From positions 62,001-126,000 of the forward strand of contig CANNFD010000005.1 in the NCBI GenBank assembly GCA_947503885.1: a stretch of 64,000 bases of DNA. Direction: 5' to 3'. Of this stretch, positions 5,619 to 32,654 are shown piece after piece. A program made the position numbers and the translations under genes. Positions within the stretch are counted from its first letter, which is position 1, and every line of letters starts with the position of its first letter. Under the pieces are notes generated by a model. That model was not told where the DNA came from and did no database searches. It worked only from the letters and a program-made list of their open reading frames with translations. Source of the stretch: an uncultured Olleya sp. (lineage in GTDB: Bacteria > Bacteroidota > Bacteroidia > Flavobacteriales > Flavobacteriaceae).

Positions 5619-6635
5619 ATGAAATACATTAAAAATATATTATTATCATTTACAGTTGTAGCTTTTACTTCTTGTGTTAATGATGATGTAAACTATACTA
5701 CTTCAGTTAAGCCTATAGTATCAAAAACAGGTCAATCTGCAACTAGTGTAATGGAAGGAGAAACTATCACTGTTTCTCTTGAGACAAACATGACTTATAA
5801 AGAAAGAATGGACTTTAAACTAGAATTAGTTTCTGGTGGTTCAAACTCTGATTATTTTGTTAGTGATGCTGATGGTTTACCTGTAGGTGCAACATCTGTT
5901 GATGATGGTTTTGGAGCTTTTGGTTATAAAGTTTCGTTTCCTGCATATGCTGAAACGCACACATTTAATGTAACAGCTACTAAAGATGTTTTAAATGAGC
6001 CTACTGAAACTTTAAAGTTTAAGTTAACAAGTGCTGATAACAAAAATGGTTTAGCTGCAGGTGGAGCAATTTACTTTGATTTAGAAGTAACTAACTTTGT
6101 CGATGATAGATTATCTGTGGTTGTTGATTGGGATAATGTAGTAACTTATTCTACTTTAAAGAGAAACATTTTAGAAACAGATTTAGATGATGAAGAAATT
6201 AGTCATACTGAAAGTTTATGTGGAATAGTTGATTACGACTTTTTCCTTAACACTTTTGATGCTTACGCATTTACTGGAGACTGTCCTGAAAATGTAAATC
6301 ATAACACTGTAAATAGTGGTAGCGTTGGGACATCAGTTTTAGCTGATGGTACTTACGATGTAGTTATTGATTTATGGGATTATGACTTTGGTTTAGATGC
6401 TGATGATAATGAAGAATTAAGCGCTGACATTGCTTTTCCTTTCAGTGTACAAATTTCTCATATCGGAACATTTAATGCTACTTTAGATTTCCCTGACCTA
6501 TATTTCTCTTCTAATACTACTAGTGCTAATGGTGCTAATGGTGATGAAGGAAGTGTTGTTGTAGCTACTATTGAAGTAGTTGGAGGAAAGTATAAAGTAT
6601 ATGACAGATTTGGTGACTTAGTTGCTGCTGAATAA
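5619..6635 (+). CDS. Surface lipoprotein of the SusCD operon, Calx-beta-like fold possible
   Basis: A 338-residue lipoprotein with acylated Cys19 (FTSC). Residues about 35-160 look like a Calx-beta or immunoglobulin-like beta-sandwich, with MEGETITVSLETNMTYKE and NEPTETLKFKLTSA. The rest is strongly acidic (DLDDEEISHTE, DYDFGLDADDNEEL), as in many calcium-binding surface proteins of marine bacteria. It lies 12 bases after the previous lipoprotein and is the last gene of the operon; a strong terminator follows 28 bases after its stop. Function unknown; an accessory binding role with SusCD is inferred. Confidence 0.75.
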   Translation: MKYIKNILLSFTVVAFTSCVNDDVNYTTSVKPIVSKTGQSATSVMEGETITVSLETNMTYKERMDFKLELVSGGSNSDYFVSDADGLPVGATSVDDGFGAFGYKVSFPAYAETHTFNVTATKDVLNEPTETLKFKLTSADNKNGLAAGGAIYFDLEVTNFVDDRLSVVVDWDNVVTYSTLKRNILETDLDDEEISHTESLCGIVDYDFFLNTFDAYAFTGDCPENVNHNTVNSGSVGTSVLADGTYDVVIDLWDYDFGLDADDNEELSADIAFPFSVQISHIGTFNATLDFPDLYFSSNTTSANGANGDEGSVVVATIEVVGGKYKVYDRFGDLVAAE

Positions 6636-6663
6636 GCATTATATTTCTTTTAAGAAACACATT

Positions 6664-6694
6664 AAAGAGCCTGCAATTTGCAGGCTCTTTTTTT
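6664..6694 (+). terminator. Rho-independent terminator of the SusCD operon
   Basis: An 11-bp perfect stem (AAAGAGCCTGC paired with GCAGGCTCTTT), a 5-base loop and a run of seven T. It ends directly before the -7 box of rlmB, so the terminator and the next promoter touch. Confidence 0.9.
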
Positions 6695-29603: not shown

Positions 29604-30086
29604 ATGAATAAAGTAGCAGTAATAATGGGAAGCAATAGCGATATGCCAGTCATGCAAGACGCTATAGATATTTTAAAAGAATTTGATATAGAAACTGAAG
29701 TTGATATTGTATCCGCACATCGTACCCCTGAAAAATTATTTGATTTTAGTAAAAACGCACATAAAAGAGGTATTAAAGTTATAATTGCTGGCGCTGGTGG
29801 TGCTGCACATTTACCTGGTATGGTAGCGTCTTTAAGCCCATTACCTATTATAGGTGTACCTGTAAAAAGCAGCAACTCTATTGATGGATGGGATTCTGTT
29901 TTATCAATCCTTCAAATGCCAGGAGGTGTTCCTGTAGCTACTGTAGCTTTAAACGGAGCAAAAAATGCTGGTATTTTAGCTGCTCAAATTATTGGTAGTG
30001 CAGACCCAAAAGTGTTAGATAAAATTATTGCTTATAAAGACAATTTAAAATTAAAAGTGGAGCAAGCAGCAAAAGATATTAAATAG
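29604..30086 (+). CDS. purE: 5-(carboxyamino)imidazole ribonucleotide mutase PurE
   Basis: A 160-residue class I PurE that moves the carboxylate of N5-CAIR to give CAIR. The substrate loop is MGSNSDMPVM, followed by VSAHRTPEKL, GAGGAAHLPGMVAS and QMPGGVPVATVALNG, all canonical. It shares an operon with purK (2-base gap). No plus-strand U-run terminator of normal quality follows. The first hairpin of the intergenic small-RNA array lies 14 bases after the stop and may stop read-through on either strand. Confidence 0.96.
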   Translation: MNKVAVIMGSNSDMPVMQDAIDILKEFDIETEVDIVSAHRTPEKLFDFSKNAHKRGIKVIIAGAGGAAHLPGMVASLSPLPIIGVPVKSSNSIDGWDSVLSILQMPGGVPVATVALNGAKNAGILAAQIIGSADPKVLDKIIAYKDNLKLKVEQAAKDIK

Positions 30087-30090
30087 CTAA

Positions 30091-30171
30091 AAACAGAAAA
30101 CCCCAACAAAGTTGGGGCTTTCAATCGCTATTAATCTTTTTAAATGAAAAATTACTCTCACATCAAAAAAA
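30091..30171 (-). ncRNA. Candidate small RNA, unit 1 of a tandem array
   Basis: Read on the minus strand: a 5' hairpin (TGAGAG with TTTTCA, two G-U pairs), the tag TAATAGCGAT, a terminator hairpin GCCCCAAC/GTTGGGG and a T-rich tail ending just after purE. The -7-like box CAACTTTG (30179-30186) has one mismatch to TAnnTTTG. The exact ends are estimates. The G-U pairs would be A-C mismatches on the plus strand. Confidence 0.45.
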
Positions 30172-30272
30172 CCTGAGGCAAAGTTGACCTATTTCCTTCT
30201 CTTTCTAATATTTAGAATGTAAAAACTAGGTCGATTCGTTTAAAGTCGATAATATCCGACTAATAACATCTT

Positions 30273-30353
30273 TACAAAAAAAAGCCCCAAACTAAGTTTG
30301 AGGCTTCCATCGCTATTATTTTCTATAATATGAGATTTAACACTCACATCAAA
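30273..30353 (-). ncRNA. Candidate small RNA, unit 2 of a tandem array
   Basis: Minus strand: 5' hairpin ATGTGAG/CTCATAT with one G-U pair, tag TAATAGCGAT, terminator stem AAGCCTCAAAC/GTTTGGGGCTT with one G-U pair and eight T. On the plus strand both G-U pairs become mismatches and there is no U-run, so the minus strand is the transcribed one. The promoter box CAATTTTG (plus 30363-30370) is one base off consensus. Confidence 0.5.
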
Positions 30354-30455
30354 AAAACAGTTGCAAAATTGCTACTTTTCTTACAAAATCTTGAAACAAT
30401 TTAAAAAAATATTTTTTTTTAGACTAAGTGCACAATACCTCGTTAAAAAACTTCC

Positions 30456-30541
30456 AAAAAAAAAGCCTCAGAAGTATCTGAGGCTTTTTATCGCTATTAA
30501 TCAATAATTTTTAAGTGAGTAACCAACCCACGGGAAAAAAT
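30456..30541 (-). ncRNA. Candidate small RNA, unit 3 of a tandem array
   Basis: Minus strand: 5' hairpin GTGGGT/ACTCAC with one G-U pair, tag TAATAGCGAT, terminator stem AAGCCTCAGA/TCTGAGGCTT and nine T. This unit has the best promoter of the three (30547-30578). The predicted RNA is about 85 bases. Confidence 0.55.
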
Positions 30542-30546
30542 CAGTA

Positions 30547-30578
30547 CAAAAATAGGTAAATAAATAATTAAAATGCAA
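30547..30578 (-). promoter_or_regulatory. Promoter of small-RNA unit 3
   Basis: On the minus strand, TTG (30578-30576) is followed by a 21-base spacer and TATTTTTG (30554-30547). This fits the Bacteroidetes pattern TTG-N17-23-TAnnTTTG and places the start a few bases before the first hairpin. Confidence 0.6.
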
Positions 30579-30623
30579 TTAAAATATTAATTTTAACATC
30601 AATTTTTTAACTACAACGTTATA

Positions 30624-32654
30624 ATGAACAAACTTTTAACATTTTTTCCTACAAAATATAATACAGCCCCATTTAATTCAATAAAAAATGAAGACTTTAA
30701 ACCGGCAATTTTACAACTTATTGAAGAAGCTAAACAAGAAATAAACACTATAGTTAATAACAATGAACCACCATCTTTTAAAAACACCATAGAAGCATTA
30801 GATTTTTCAGGCCAACAATTAGATCGTGTGACTAGTATTTTTTTTAATTTAAACTCTGCCGAAACCAATGACGAGATTCAGAAAATAGCTCAAGACATCT
30901 CACCTATTTTAACCGAGTTTGGTAATGACATAACCTTAAATCAAGAGTTGTTTAAAAAAGTTAAATCAGTTTATGACAACCAAGCGTCTTTTAATTTAAC
31001 AACGGAGCAAAGTACATTATTAGATAAAAAATATAAAAGCTTTTCTAGAAATGGTGCAAACCTAGATGAATCAAAAAAACAAAAACTAAGAGCAATAGAT
31101 AAACAATTAGCTAGTCTTAAATTAAAGTTTGGAGAAAATATCCTAGCAGAGACCAATGCTTTTGAAATGCATTTAACTAATGAAGACGAAGTTGCAGGTT
31201 TACCAGAGGGTGCTAAAGAAGCTGCAAAACAGTTAGCAGAAAGCAAAAACAAAACGGGCTGGTTAATTACATTAGACTACCCAAGCTACATCCCTTTTAT
31301 GACCTATGCAGATCGTAGAGACTTACGTAAAAAATTAGCATTAGCTTTTGGGGCTAAAGGATTTAATAATGACAAACTAGACAATCAAGATCATGTGTTA
31401 CAAATAGCAAAACTACGTTTTGAACGCGCCAATTTACTAGGCTATAAAACGCATGCACATTTTGTATTGGAAGAGCGTATGGCTCAAACTCCAGAAAAAG
31501 TTAATGCCTTTTTACAGGATTTACTAGTTAAAGCAAAACCAGCTGCTGAACGTGAATTTAATCAACTTGAAAATTTTGCAAAAGCATTGGATGGGATTGA
31601 TCAATTACAAAAATGGGACTCGGCTTATTATTCTGAAAAATTAAAACAAAAATTATTTAATCTAGATGACGAGCAGCTTAAACCTTATTTTAAATTAGAA
31701 AATGTTATTGATGGCGCGTTTCAAGTTGCTAACAAACTATTTGGACTTCAGTTTAAACAAATTGACTCCATAGATAAATATCATGAAGATGTCATGACAT
31801 ACGAAGTGTTGGACGAAAACAACCAATTGGTTTCTTTATTTTATGCAGACTTTTTTCCAAGACCAGGAAAACGAAATGGTGCTTGGATGACATCCTACAA
31901 GCCACAATATATTAAAGATGGTATAAATGAAAGACCACATATATCTAATGTATGCAACTTTACAAAGCCAACCAAAAGCAAACCATCATTACTTACTTTT
32001 AACGAAGTCACAACATTGTTTCACGAATTTGGACATGGACTACATGGCATGCTAGCAAATACAACGTACCCTAGCTTATCTGGTACAAGTGTGTTTTGGG
32101 ATTTTGTTGAATTACCAAGTCAAGTTTTAGAAAACTGGTGTTATGAAAAAGAAGCATTAGAGTTGTTTGCTAAACATTACGAAACAGGAGAAGTAATTCC
32201 AATGGATTTAGTAGAAAAAATTAAAGACAGCGCAACCTTCCAACAAGGGATGCAAACCTTAAGACAGCTAAGTTTTGGCTTATTAGACATGAGTTGGCAT
32301 GGTGTTGACCCAACAAATATAACAGATGTAAAAACTCAAGAAAACAAAACGTTTAAGGATACTAATCTTTTCCCTGATGTTAAAGAAAATTGTATGAGCA
32401 CTGCTTTTGCCCATATTTTTCAAGGCGGTTATTCTTCTGGATATTACAGCTATAAATGGGCTGAAGTTTTGGATGCTGATGCATTTGAATATTTTAAAGA
32501 AAAAGGAATCTTTAATAAAGACGTTGCTTCAAAATTTAAAGAACATATTTTATCTAAAGGAGGAACGGAAAACCCAATGGTACTATATAAACGATTTAGA
32601 GGACAAGAACCTAAACCAGAAGCTTTATTAAAACGTGCAGGACTGATTAAATAG
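30624..32654 (+). CDS. M3-family zinc metallopeptidase (Dcp/oligopeptidase A type)
   Basis: A 676-residue cytosolic peptidase that degrades small peptides, either as a dipeptidyl carboxypeptidase or an oligopeptidase. The thermolysin-like zinc motif HEFGHGLH has His467, Glu468 and His471. The third ligand glutamate is probably in GTSVFWDFVELPSQVLENW, seen as FWDFVELPSQ. There is no signal peptide. Conserved substrate-side residues appear in AFAHIFQGGYSSGYYSYKWA. The gene stands alone: the small-RNA array is upstream and a terminator lies 23 bases downstream. Distinguishing Dcp from OpdA activity needs biochemical data. Confidence 0.92.
   Translation: MNKLLTFFPTKYNTAPFNSIKNEDFKPAILQLIEEAKQEINTIVNNNEPPSFKNTIEALDFSGQQLDRVTSIFFNLNSAETNDEIQKIAQDISPILTEFGNDITLNQELFKKVKSVYDNQASFNLTTEQSTLLDKKYKSFSRNGANLDESKKQKLRAIDKQLASLKLKFGENILAETNAFEMHLTNEDEVAGLPEGAKEAAKQLAESKNKTGWLITLDYPSYIPFMTYADRRDLRKKLALAFGAKGFNNDKLDNQDHVLQIAKLRFERANLLGYKTHAHFVLEERMAQTPEKVNAFLQDLLVKAKPAAEREFNQLENFAKALDGIDQLQKWDSAYYSEKLKQKLFNLDDEQLKPYFKLENVIDGAFQVANKLFGLQFKQIDSIDKYHEDVMTYEVLDENNQLVSLFYADFFPRPGKRNGAWMTSYKPQYIKDGINERPHISNVCNFTKPTKSKPSLLTFNEVTTLFHEFGHGLHGMLANTTYPSLSGTSVFWDFVELPSQVLENWCYEKEALELFAKHYETGEVIPMDLVEKIKDSATFQQGMQTLRQLSFGLLDMSWHGVDPTNITDVKTQENKTFKDTNLFPDVKENCMSTAFAHIFQGGYSSGYYSYKWAEVLDADAFEYFKEKGIFNKDVASKFKEHILSKGGTENPMVLYKRFRGQEPKPEALLKRAGLIK

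Follow-up and report, generated by a model that had tools for sequence, protein, structure and literature searches.

What would three short tandem units in the gap between purE and a gene for a family M3 peptidase encode, and on which partners would their products act? The units lie in a 64,000-nt stretch of DNA from an uncultured Olleya species (hereafter "the window"). Regulatory RNA of the Flavobacteriaceae is little charted: in a study of Flavobacterium psychrophilum, in the parts available, many transcripts were mapped and one sRNA (Rfp18) was deleted (PMC9723704). We propose, and consider it probable, that the array encodes a trans-acting, base-pairing sRNA family of the Flavobacteriaceae that lowers the translation of secreted and outer-membrane proteins and is accompanied by a candidate sponge array. 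All that is set out below on layout and conservation, on covariation and synteny, on complementarity and the shared occurrence of sRNA and motif, and on gene classes was obtained from sequence. The gain would be a conserved sRNA family whose seed is predicted, a candidate envelope regulon defined by sequence, a candidate sponge array and a linked regulator, covering the genera with named strains Olleya, Lacinutrix, Bizionia and Mesoflavibacter, and the purE-linked sRNA would probably be a helper in cell-surface control.

A first-pass annotation had described three minus-strand units with a constant tag between purE and the peptidase gene. This description was borne out: the whole window holds three exact copies of the 10-mer TAATAGCGAT, always on the minus strand (30124-30133, 30309-30318 and 30490-30499), and successive tags are spaced 185 and 181 bases apart. 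We name the units A, B and C in their 5' to 3' order on that strand (about 85 nt each, spanning 30088-30543; Table 1). In each of them a TAnnTTTG-like box is followed by a U-run, a hairpin, the tag, and a terminator hairpin with its T-run. The full promoter earlier assigned to the third unit of the annotation, our unit A, could be read as TTG-N21-TATTTTTG (30578-30547), and its TATTTTTG box is kept with small changes across the Olleya alignment. In the boxes of B (CAATTTTG) and C (CAACTTTG) the first T of TAnnTTTG is replaced by C, and for this reason their promoters look weaker. A simple terminator scan listed the terminators of B and C and did not list that of A, which is visible in the fold. 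As judged from sequence, unit A thus has the promoter and intrinsic terminator of its own that are expected of a trans-acting sRNA, and the promoters of B and C are imperfect. We infer that unit A, and more weakly C and B, would be transcribed from a Bacteroidota-type promoter and end at the intrinsic terminator.

Table 1. Features of the purE–M3 gap, with their positions in the window, and loci elsewhere that carry the tag and terminator.
Feature	Position	Strand	Remarks
Unit A sRNA (conserved member)	30456..30543	-	about 87 nt; predicted 5' end near 30542
Unit A promoter	30547..30578	-	TTG (30578-30576), N21, TATTTTTG (30554-30547)
Unit A single-stranded linker TTGATTAATAGCGAT, proposed seed	30490..30504	-	exposed in predicted fold; core near-invariant
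Unit A intrinsic terminator hairpin	30460..30489	-	fold and covarying helix
Unit B sRNA	30275..30360	-	-7-like CAATTTTG at 30371-30364; tag 30309-30318
Unit B terminator hairpin	30280..30308	-	terminator scan and fold
Unit C sRNA	30088..30174	-	-7-like CAACTTTG at 30186-30179; tag 30124-30133
Unit C terminator hairpin	30096..30122	-	terminator scan and fold; ends 9 bases past purE stop codon
purE (AIR carboxylase domain)	29604..30086	+	syntenic flank, convergent with array
Peptidase family M3 gene	30624..32654	+	syntenic flank, divergent from array
AcrB-type loci with module	L116, L122, L126, L128, L129, L133, L135, L136, L140; probably L144		

Two further readings of letters in this region were rejected. 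A short open frame in A (GTG AGY TGG TTA CTC ACT TAA) was set aside, as the A units of Lacinutrix are without the GTG and the C loops vary in length. Within purE, the codons for GSNSD hold CAATAGCGAT (29633-29642, same sense as the tag), which differs from the tag at one position and matches it exactly in Mesoflavibacter; we judge this near copy to be probably a coincidence of codons.

The three units fold well on the minus strand, at -28.2 (A), -28.9 and -29.5 kcal/mol (z from -5.3 to -5.6, with A at -5.3), and none of 200 shuffles of any unit folded as well. The same stretches reach -22.7, -13.8 and -14.2 kcal/mol on the plus strand, a minus-strand advantage of 5.5 to 15.3 kcal/mol that is in line with the earlier argument that G-U pairs fix the minus strand as the one transcribed. 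That the hairpins vary in sequence while pairing is kept found support in strong compensatory change among homologues aligned with a covariance model. Specifically, in 37 such units 98.0% of 615 cells are paired and two-sided changes occur in 15 of 17 pairs, a level that none of 500 shuffles reached and that drops to 29–59% (maximum 59.2%) when columns are slid by one to three positions, though this alignment was fitted to the structure, which favours the pairing score. In an unfitted MAFFT alignment of 23 homologues the terminator helix was recovered, with two-sided changes in 5 of 11 pairs, and the 5' hairpin was not recovered by RNAalifold. This hairpin is present in the predicted folds as the annotation had it, but it is longer than the six or seven pairs given there, since the U-run also pairs with the A-rich spacer.

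Between its two hairpins, unit A is predicted to leave exposed a 15-nt linker (UUGAUUAAUAGCGAU), with an unpaired probability above 0.75 at 13 of the 15 positions and a core that is near-invariant across aligned homologues. The tag had been described as single-stranded, and in the predicted folds this holds for A (mean unpaired probability 0.92 over the 11-nt core) but not for B (0.44) and C (0.42), where the linker is partly folded away. Unit B is also without the GAU ahead of UAAUAGC. The half-hidden linkers suggest that B and C would have altered or conditional activity, and the amplification to A, B and C in Olleya may tune dose.

The family had not been recognised at first, and the Rfam comparison then proposed agrees: no gathering-score match to Rfam 15 was obtained on the three units or in 20 homologue loci. 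All 38 low-threshold matches on 29900-30700 (BSnc120, rimP, Phe leader and others) fall below the gathering score, and their alignments, as read, are mostly terminator matches, that of BSnc120 being on the plus strand. The sole gathering match in the window lies elsewhere; it is a Flavo-1 RNA (RF01705; 26011-26098, plus strand, 63.3 bits against a cutoff of 42), which follows an alpha/beta-hydrolase gene and converges on obgE, and the units were accordingly not assigned to Flavo-1. A Trp-leader match at 6605-6693 (plus strand) has a strong terminator and scores 34.3 bits, below the cutoff of 41. Among the literature matches listed (titles and abstracts, with most subscription journals outside reach), none describes this RNA.

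The array is not a chance feature of one genome: all ten Olleya genomes searched have it, nine of them with the exact tag three times over between purE and the M3 gene. In the tenth (G006, 75% complete) there are two tags, the middle unit is tagless, and the contig shows the M3 flank alone. That middle unit (L009), between A and C, keeps a hairpin and a terminator-like stretch. Across Olleya, A varies least, and B and C vary mostly in hairpin and terminator with pairing retained. An exact 20-mer from the linker gave 27 stretches in named genomes, 23 of which proved on reading to be this RNA (Olleya, Lacinutrix, Bizionia, Mesoflavibacter and other Flavobacteriaceae); the other four were rejected as chance matches, one in Psychroserpens (L045) and three outside the family (L056, L060, L062). 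In seven of nine Lacinutrix records, in Mesoflavibacter and in two MAGs, A is followed by another unit with the exact tag, which is of type C, and weaker second model matches occur in some other genomes, while unit B was found only in Olleya. Seven loci among those returned by the pattern TAATAGCGATNRAARSCY (21 of 397 family genomes) were unlike this RNA on reading (L021, L022, L025, L030, L033, L034, L037).

Two covariance models, R1 (from 26 A units) and R2 (from 37 units), were run on the family genomes. At E ≤ 1e-3, R1 matched 98 of 299 genomes, and many of its matches looked like other terminators; our counts therefore rest on R2 at 1e-6. In the window, unit A gives a covariance-model match at 30456-30542 with 113 bits (the unit is itself part of the model). 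At the 1e-6 cut R2 matches 59 of 299 sampled family genomes, from 48 of 236 genera. Both purE and the M3 gene adjoin the match in 51 of the 59 (tblastn with the window proteins) and, owing to contig ends, a single flank in two more (M3 in G114, purE in G179), giving 53 genomes and 43 genera with a purE–M3 sRNA; in the other six (G076, G077, G117, G195, G204, G296) the match lies away from this gap. The 53 genomes are a lower bound, as two more (G018 and G033) were found by a permissive search to carry the sRNA at purE–M3 below the cut. The homologues stand on the strand opposite to purE and M3, and the covarying relatives near purE by which the array was to be checked thus occupy the same gap across much of the family. 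In an order-wide draw, 5 of 246 genomes matched at 1e-5, three of them within the family (one, G186, not at purE) and two outside it without the tag. A dispersed copy with its own TATTTTTG box was seen away from purE in a member of the Lacinutrix group (L141 2328-2410, G325).

We next consider what the conserved linker could recognise. Its stretch UUGAUUAAUAGC is complementary to GCTATTAAT(C/T)AA, a sequence that turns up repeatedly where mRNA leaders are predicted to begin. The annotation had supposed that units of this kind often carry seeds acting on targets; complementary leaders do recur, but the hairpins appear less likely to be the seed than the tag with its 5' neighbours (UUGAUUAAUAGC). 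In the genome of origin, 19 sites match an 18-nt linker region with at most three mismatches, against eight for the reversed pattern, and in three of the 19 (L146, L147, L163) the complement lies about 9–12 nt upstream of a start codon. Within the window there are four further GCTATTAAT matches, none with an ATG within 80 nt that opens a frame of at least 50 codons.

Across 60 genomes we scored GCTATTAATYAA-N(0-30)-ATG, counting each ATG, so that some sites count two or three times. The 42 sRNA-positive genomes hold 346 matches (mean 8.24, range 3–15) and the 18 sRNA-negative genomes 15 (mean 0.83, range 0–5). A permuted core (GCATTTAAT) gave 66 (mean 1.57) and 33 (mean 1.83), respectively, and the backwards pattern means of 0.71 and 0.44. 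The negatives had been picked for having no R2 match at 1e-6, and six are of one genus (g147, probably Flavobacterium in view of its many species); the genomes are related, so the co-occurrence is not independent across species and p-values are overstated. Three of the 20 original negatives were site-rich (G018 with 13 matches, G033 with 11 and G030 with 5). Predicting the sRNA from the motif was right for G018 and G033, not for G030, and the first two, whose 13 and 11 matches had been included among those of the 20 negatives, were regrouped only after their sRNA had been located; no genome was dropped from the counts. In the remaining 18 negatives, G030 included, the tag is absent within about 800 nt after purE. 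The five matches of G030 may be due to chance or to another seed carrier. As judged from these genomes, sRNA and motif are largely present or absent together, and a seed complementary to recurrent target sites, as expected of a trans-acting sRNA, is predicted here.

The same comparison bears on whether the RNAs serve purE alone, acting in cis as its antisense RNAs or terminators. The layout would suit such a role, the array being convergent with purE and the C terminator standing directly after its stop codon. However, purE is without a tag behind it in all 18 sRNA-negative genomes, in 16 of which the M3 gene is in the same locus, and action in cis would leave the leader motifs unexplained; we regard it as highly improbable.

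What do the motif sites precede? Loci were fetched for part of the matches listed, 142 distinct sites from 17 sRNA-positive genomes and nine from seven sRNA-negative ones. The 142 comprise 48 leaders, 10 doubtful leaders, 62 other intergenic sites (including at least one sRNA itself, L164), 12 coding sites, seven antisense to coding sequence and three in the sRNA; the nine comprise two leaders, four doubtful leaders, two other intergenic sites, one antisense site and none in coding sequence or the sRNA. The enrichment is therefore one of site number and not of leader fraction, which does not separate the two groups. Genes behind the motif seem mostly to be secreted or outer-membrane-like, OmpA-type proteins and curlins among them. 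By a simple home-made rule, 35 of the 48 leader genes are signal-peptide-like, against 14 of 46 ORFs of the window. Pfam domains were sought in nine leader genes and gave OmpA (L213, L186), Curlin_rpt (L205, L244), an LTD lamin-tail domain (L203) and, for four, no match. An OmpA-domain leader gene recurs in four genera (G017, G173, G177, G240; 55–64% identical), a secreted protein of 46–47 residues in G061, G162, G173 and G017 (there cut by the contig end), and both curlin-like proteins and a protein of 152–155 residues in Olleya and Bizionia. The loci were picked for the site, so the sites in them are bound to be alike; that the same genes return does not follow from this choice.

The leader sites stand close to both the predicted promoter and the start codon. 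A site begins 4 nt past a box (at least four of six TAnnTTTG positions) in 23 of the 48 leaders and 5 nt past it in six more, and from its first base to the ATG there are 14–40 nt (once 59). This preferred spacing to the -7 box is what one would expect were GCTATTAATCAA a promoter element, read as DNA or as initially transcribed sequence by a transcription factor or a sigma factor, with its RNA complementarity incidental. We find that improbable: it would not account for 12-nt complementarity to a near-invariant single-stranded linker, for the co-occurrence of sRNA and motif or for two correct predictions out of three, and in the sRNA gene the linker runs the other way and lies about 40 nt past the promoter of that gene.

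We favour pairing in the cell, in which the exposed linker UUGAUUAAUAGC of the sRNA would bind GCUAUUAAU(C/U)AA right at the 5' terminus of the target mRNAs, with leaders so short that the duplex would fall where a 30S ribosome must sit. Pairing this close to the AUG is within the ribosome landing zone. The most likely outcome would be less translation of a set of proteins that are secreted or belong to the outer membrane, OmpA-type and curlin-type ones among them; repression is favoured by the position of the pairing in the ribosome zone and by analogy with FopS and Yfr1 (see below), which for the most part act as repressors of outer-membrane protein mRNAs. Pairing at the very 5' end can have another effect, as in streptococcal FasX, where it stabilises or activates the target mRNA. 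The main rival to repression is that the same happens here: the site is at the predicted 5' terminus, often 4 nt past the -7 box, where end protection would act, and its distance to the AUG varies (14–59 nt from the first site base). Near-start pairing by FopS and Yfr1, with similar target classes, is nevertheless mostly repressive, one Yfr1 target being activated, and on that analogy we hold stabilisation to be unlikely. The leader sites were chosen for complementarity, so that the good energies of unit A alone prove nothing; those of unit B lie inside the shuffled-leader range for four of five Olleya leaders tested, three of these near the shuffled mean.

The linker is not confined to the array and also precedes terminators of other transcripts, for example downstream of an efflux permease gene in nine loci (Table 1), whose permeases are mutually 74–91% identical (that of L126 is AcrB/AcrD/AcrF by Pfam). 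There, in several genera, hairpin, linker tag and terminator follow 18–104 nt past the stop codon, and the module stands at 12 further intergenic places among the sites fetched. Such recurrence would be natural if the tag were a site for an RNA-binding protein or for processing beside terminators and the seeds were instead in the hairpin loops. This we think quite unlikely, as complementary leaders are not predicted by it and the unit A loop YUGGUUA is conserved only among closer genera. The tag could be such a site and a seed at once, and the 3' modules may either be sRNAs that derive from 3' ends and share the seed, or reflect a processing or protein-binding role.

Base pairing by the linker also has a possible counterpart in the opposite sense, as some of the intergenic target-motif sites would begin small RNAs with a terminator of their own. 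In Olleya these form a second tandem array of predicted small RNAs, with units of about 140 nt in which a palindrome (AATACGTAGTTCTACGTATT) is followed by a box resembling TAYCTTTAC, in most cases by GCTATTAAT or a sequence close to it, and then by a terminator. An example is L197 1169-1668 (G000 C2:191408-191907), with a TACGTA palindrome and most units starting with the target motif. Similar array DNA is present in all ten Olleya genomes, and G014 and G022 match it weakly; a simple rule counts two to nine palindromes per locus in nine of the ten loci and none in L381. In the genome of origin the array adjoins a gene for a LuxR-type response regulator (Response_reg and GerE domains by Pfam), and a gene 79–100% identical to it shares the array locus in each of the ten Olleya genomes; homologues (47 and 53%) stand beside single-copy candidates in G033 (L337) and G240 (L346).

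The simplest role of these candidate RNAs would be that of a sponge for the purE-linked sRNA: starting with the target sequence, they would titrate it and release its targets. A reciprocal circuit can be drawn on this basis, in which the purE-linked sRNA reads a shared 12-nt 5' address, regulator-linked RNAs bearing the address soak it up, and the seed at 3' ends (AcrB-type) ties in other transcripts; it is a tentative proposal, to which we give not quite even weight. Seed and address are both short and vary hardly at all, so that the mechanism lends itself to a single, direct compensatory-mutation experiment. The first 20–26 bases of the array query, which make up the TACGTA palindrome, also match by themselves at many further positions in G004, G005 and other Olleya, which suggests a wider regulon of the neighbouring regulator.

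How does this system compare with those already described? We rate it as a new sRNA family, with an unusual pairing of two tandem arrays. MicA and RybB are Hfq-dependent enterobacterial sRNAs of the envelope-stress type. In the available parts of the reports, enterobacterial and Vibrio envelope-stress sRNAs lower omp mRNA in a Sigma-E-dependent manner, and VrrA pairs with the 5' region of ompA mRNA (PMC1804206, PMC2628432). Envelope mRNAs as targets, here predicted, are a likeness to VrrA and the MicA/RybB type, with sequence compared through Rfam only. Within the phylum, FopS and GibS of Bacteroides are multicopy paralogous sRNAs with outer-membrane protein mRNAs as targets; FopS, as described in the part of the paper available, is 65–70 nt long, encoded at several loci and conserved in Bacteroidaceae, and binds with a 5'-region seed near the start codon of susC-type mRNA (PMC11697453). 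The purE-linked RNAs resemble them in phylum, multicopy paralogy and predicted outer-membrane targets, but differ, as far as that part of the paper goes, in an internal conserved exposed stretch (about positions 40–54 of unit A), a target site at the 5' terminus and a constant location at purE. Binding by RbpB is a further mark of the FopS/GibS family. Rfp18 of F. psychrophilum is, in the part of its report available, a conserved structured Flavobacteriaceae sRNA with secreted-protein targets and predicted pairing through its third stem-loop, and its deletion lowered two metalloprotease mRNAs (PMC9723704). The purE-linked units are predicted to have two hairpins, and Rfp18 is described with at least three stem-loops; the comparison between them is one of descriptions.

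A further close scheme is that of cyanobacterial Yfr1, in which the motif likewise lies between two hairpins. From the part of the source available, Yfr1 is a small conserved sRNA with a fully conserved motif, and outer-membrane proteins are enriched among its predicted targets; of 11 targets tested, 10 were repressed, mostly through sites just upstream of the start codon, and one was activated, while Yfr2, which has a complementary region (four repeats in Nostoc), sequesters Yfr1 (PMC6974561). A conserved exposed seed, envelope targets and a complementary multicopy RNA are all found here too, as predictions from genomes. Yfr1 nevertheless belongs to another phylum and has another seed, the CCUCAC of its motif region, as given in that part of the source, being absent from the three units, and the Olleya sponge candidates, unlike Yfr2, are in tandem behind a response-regulator gene.
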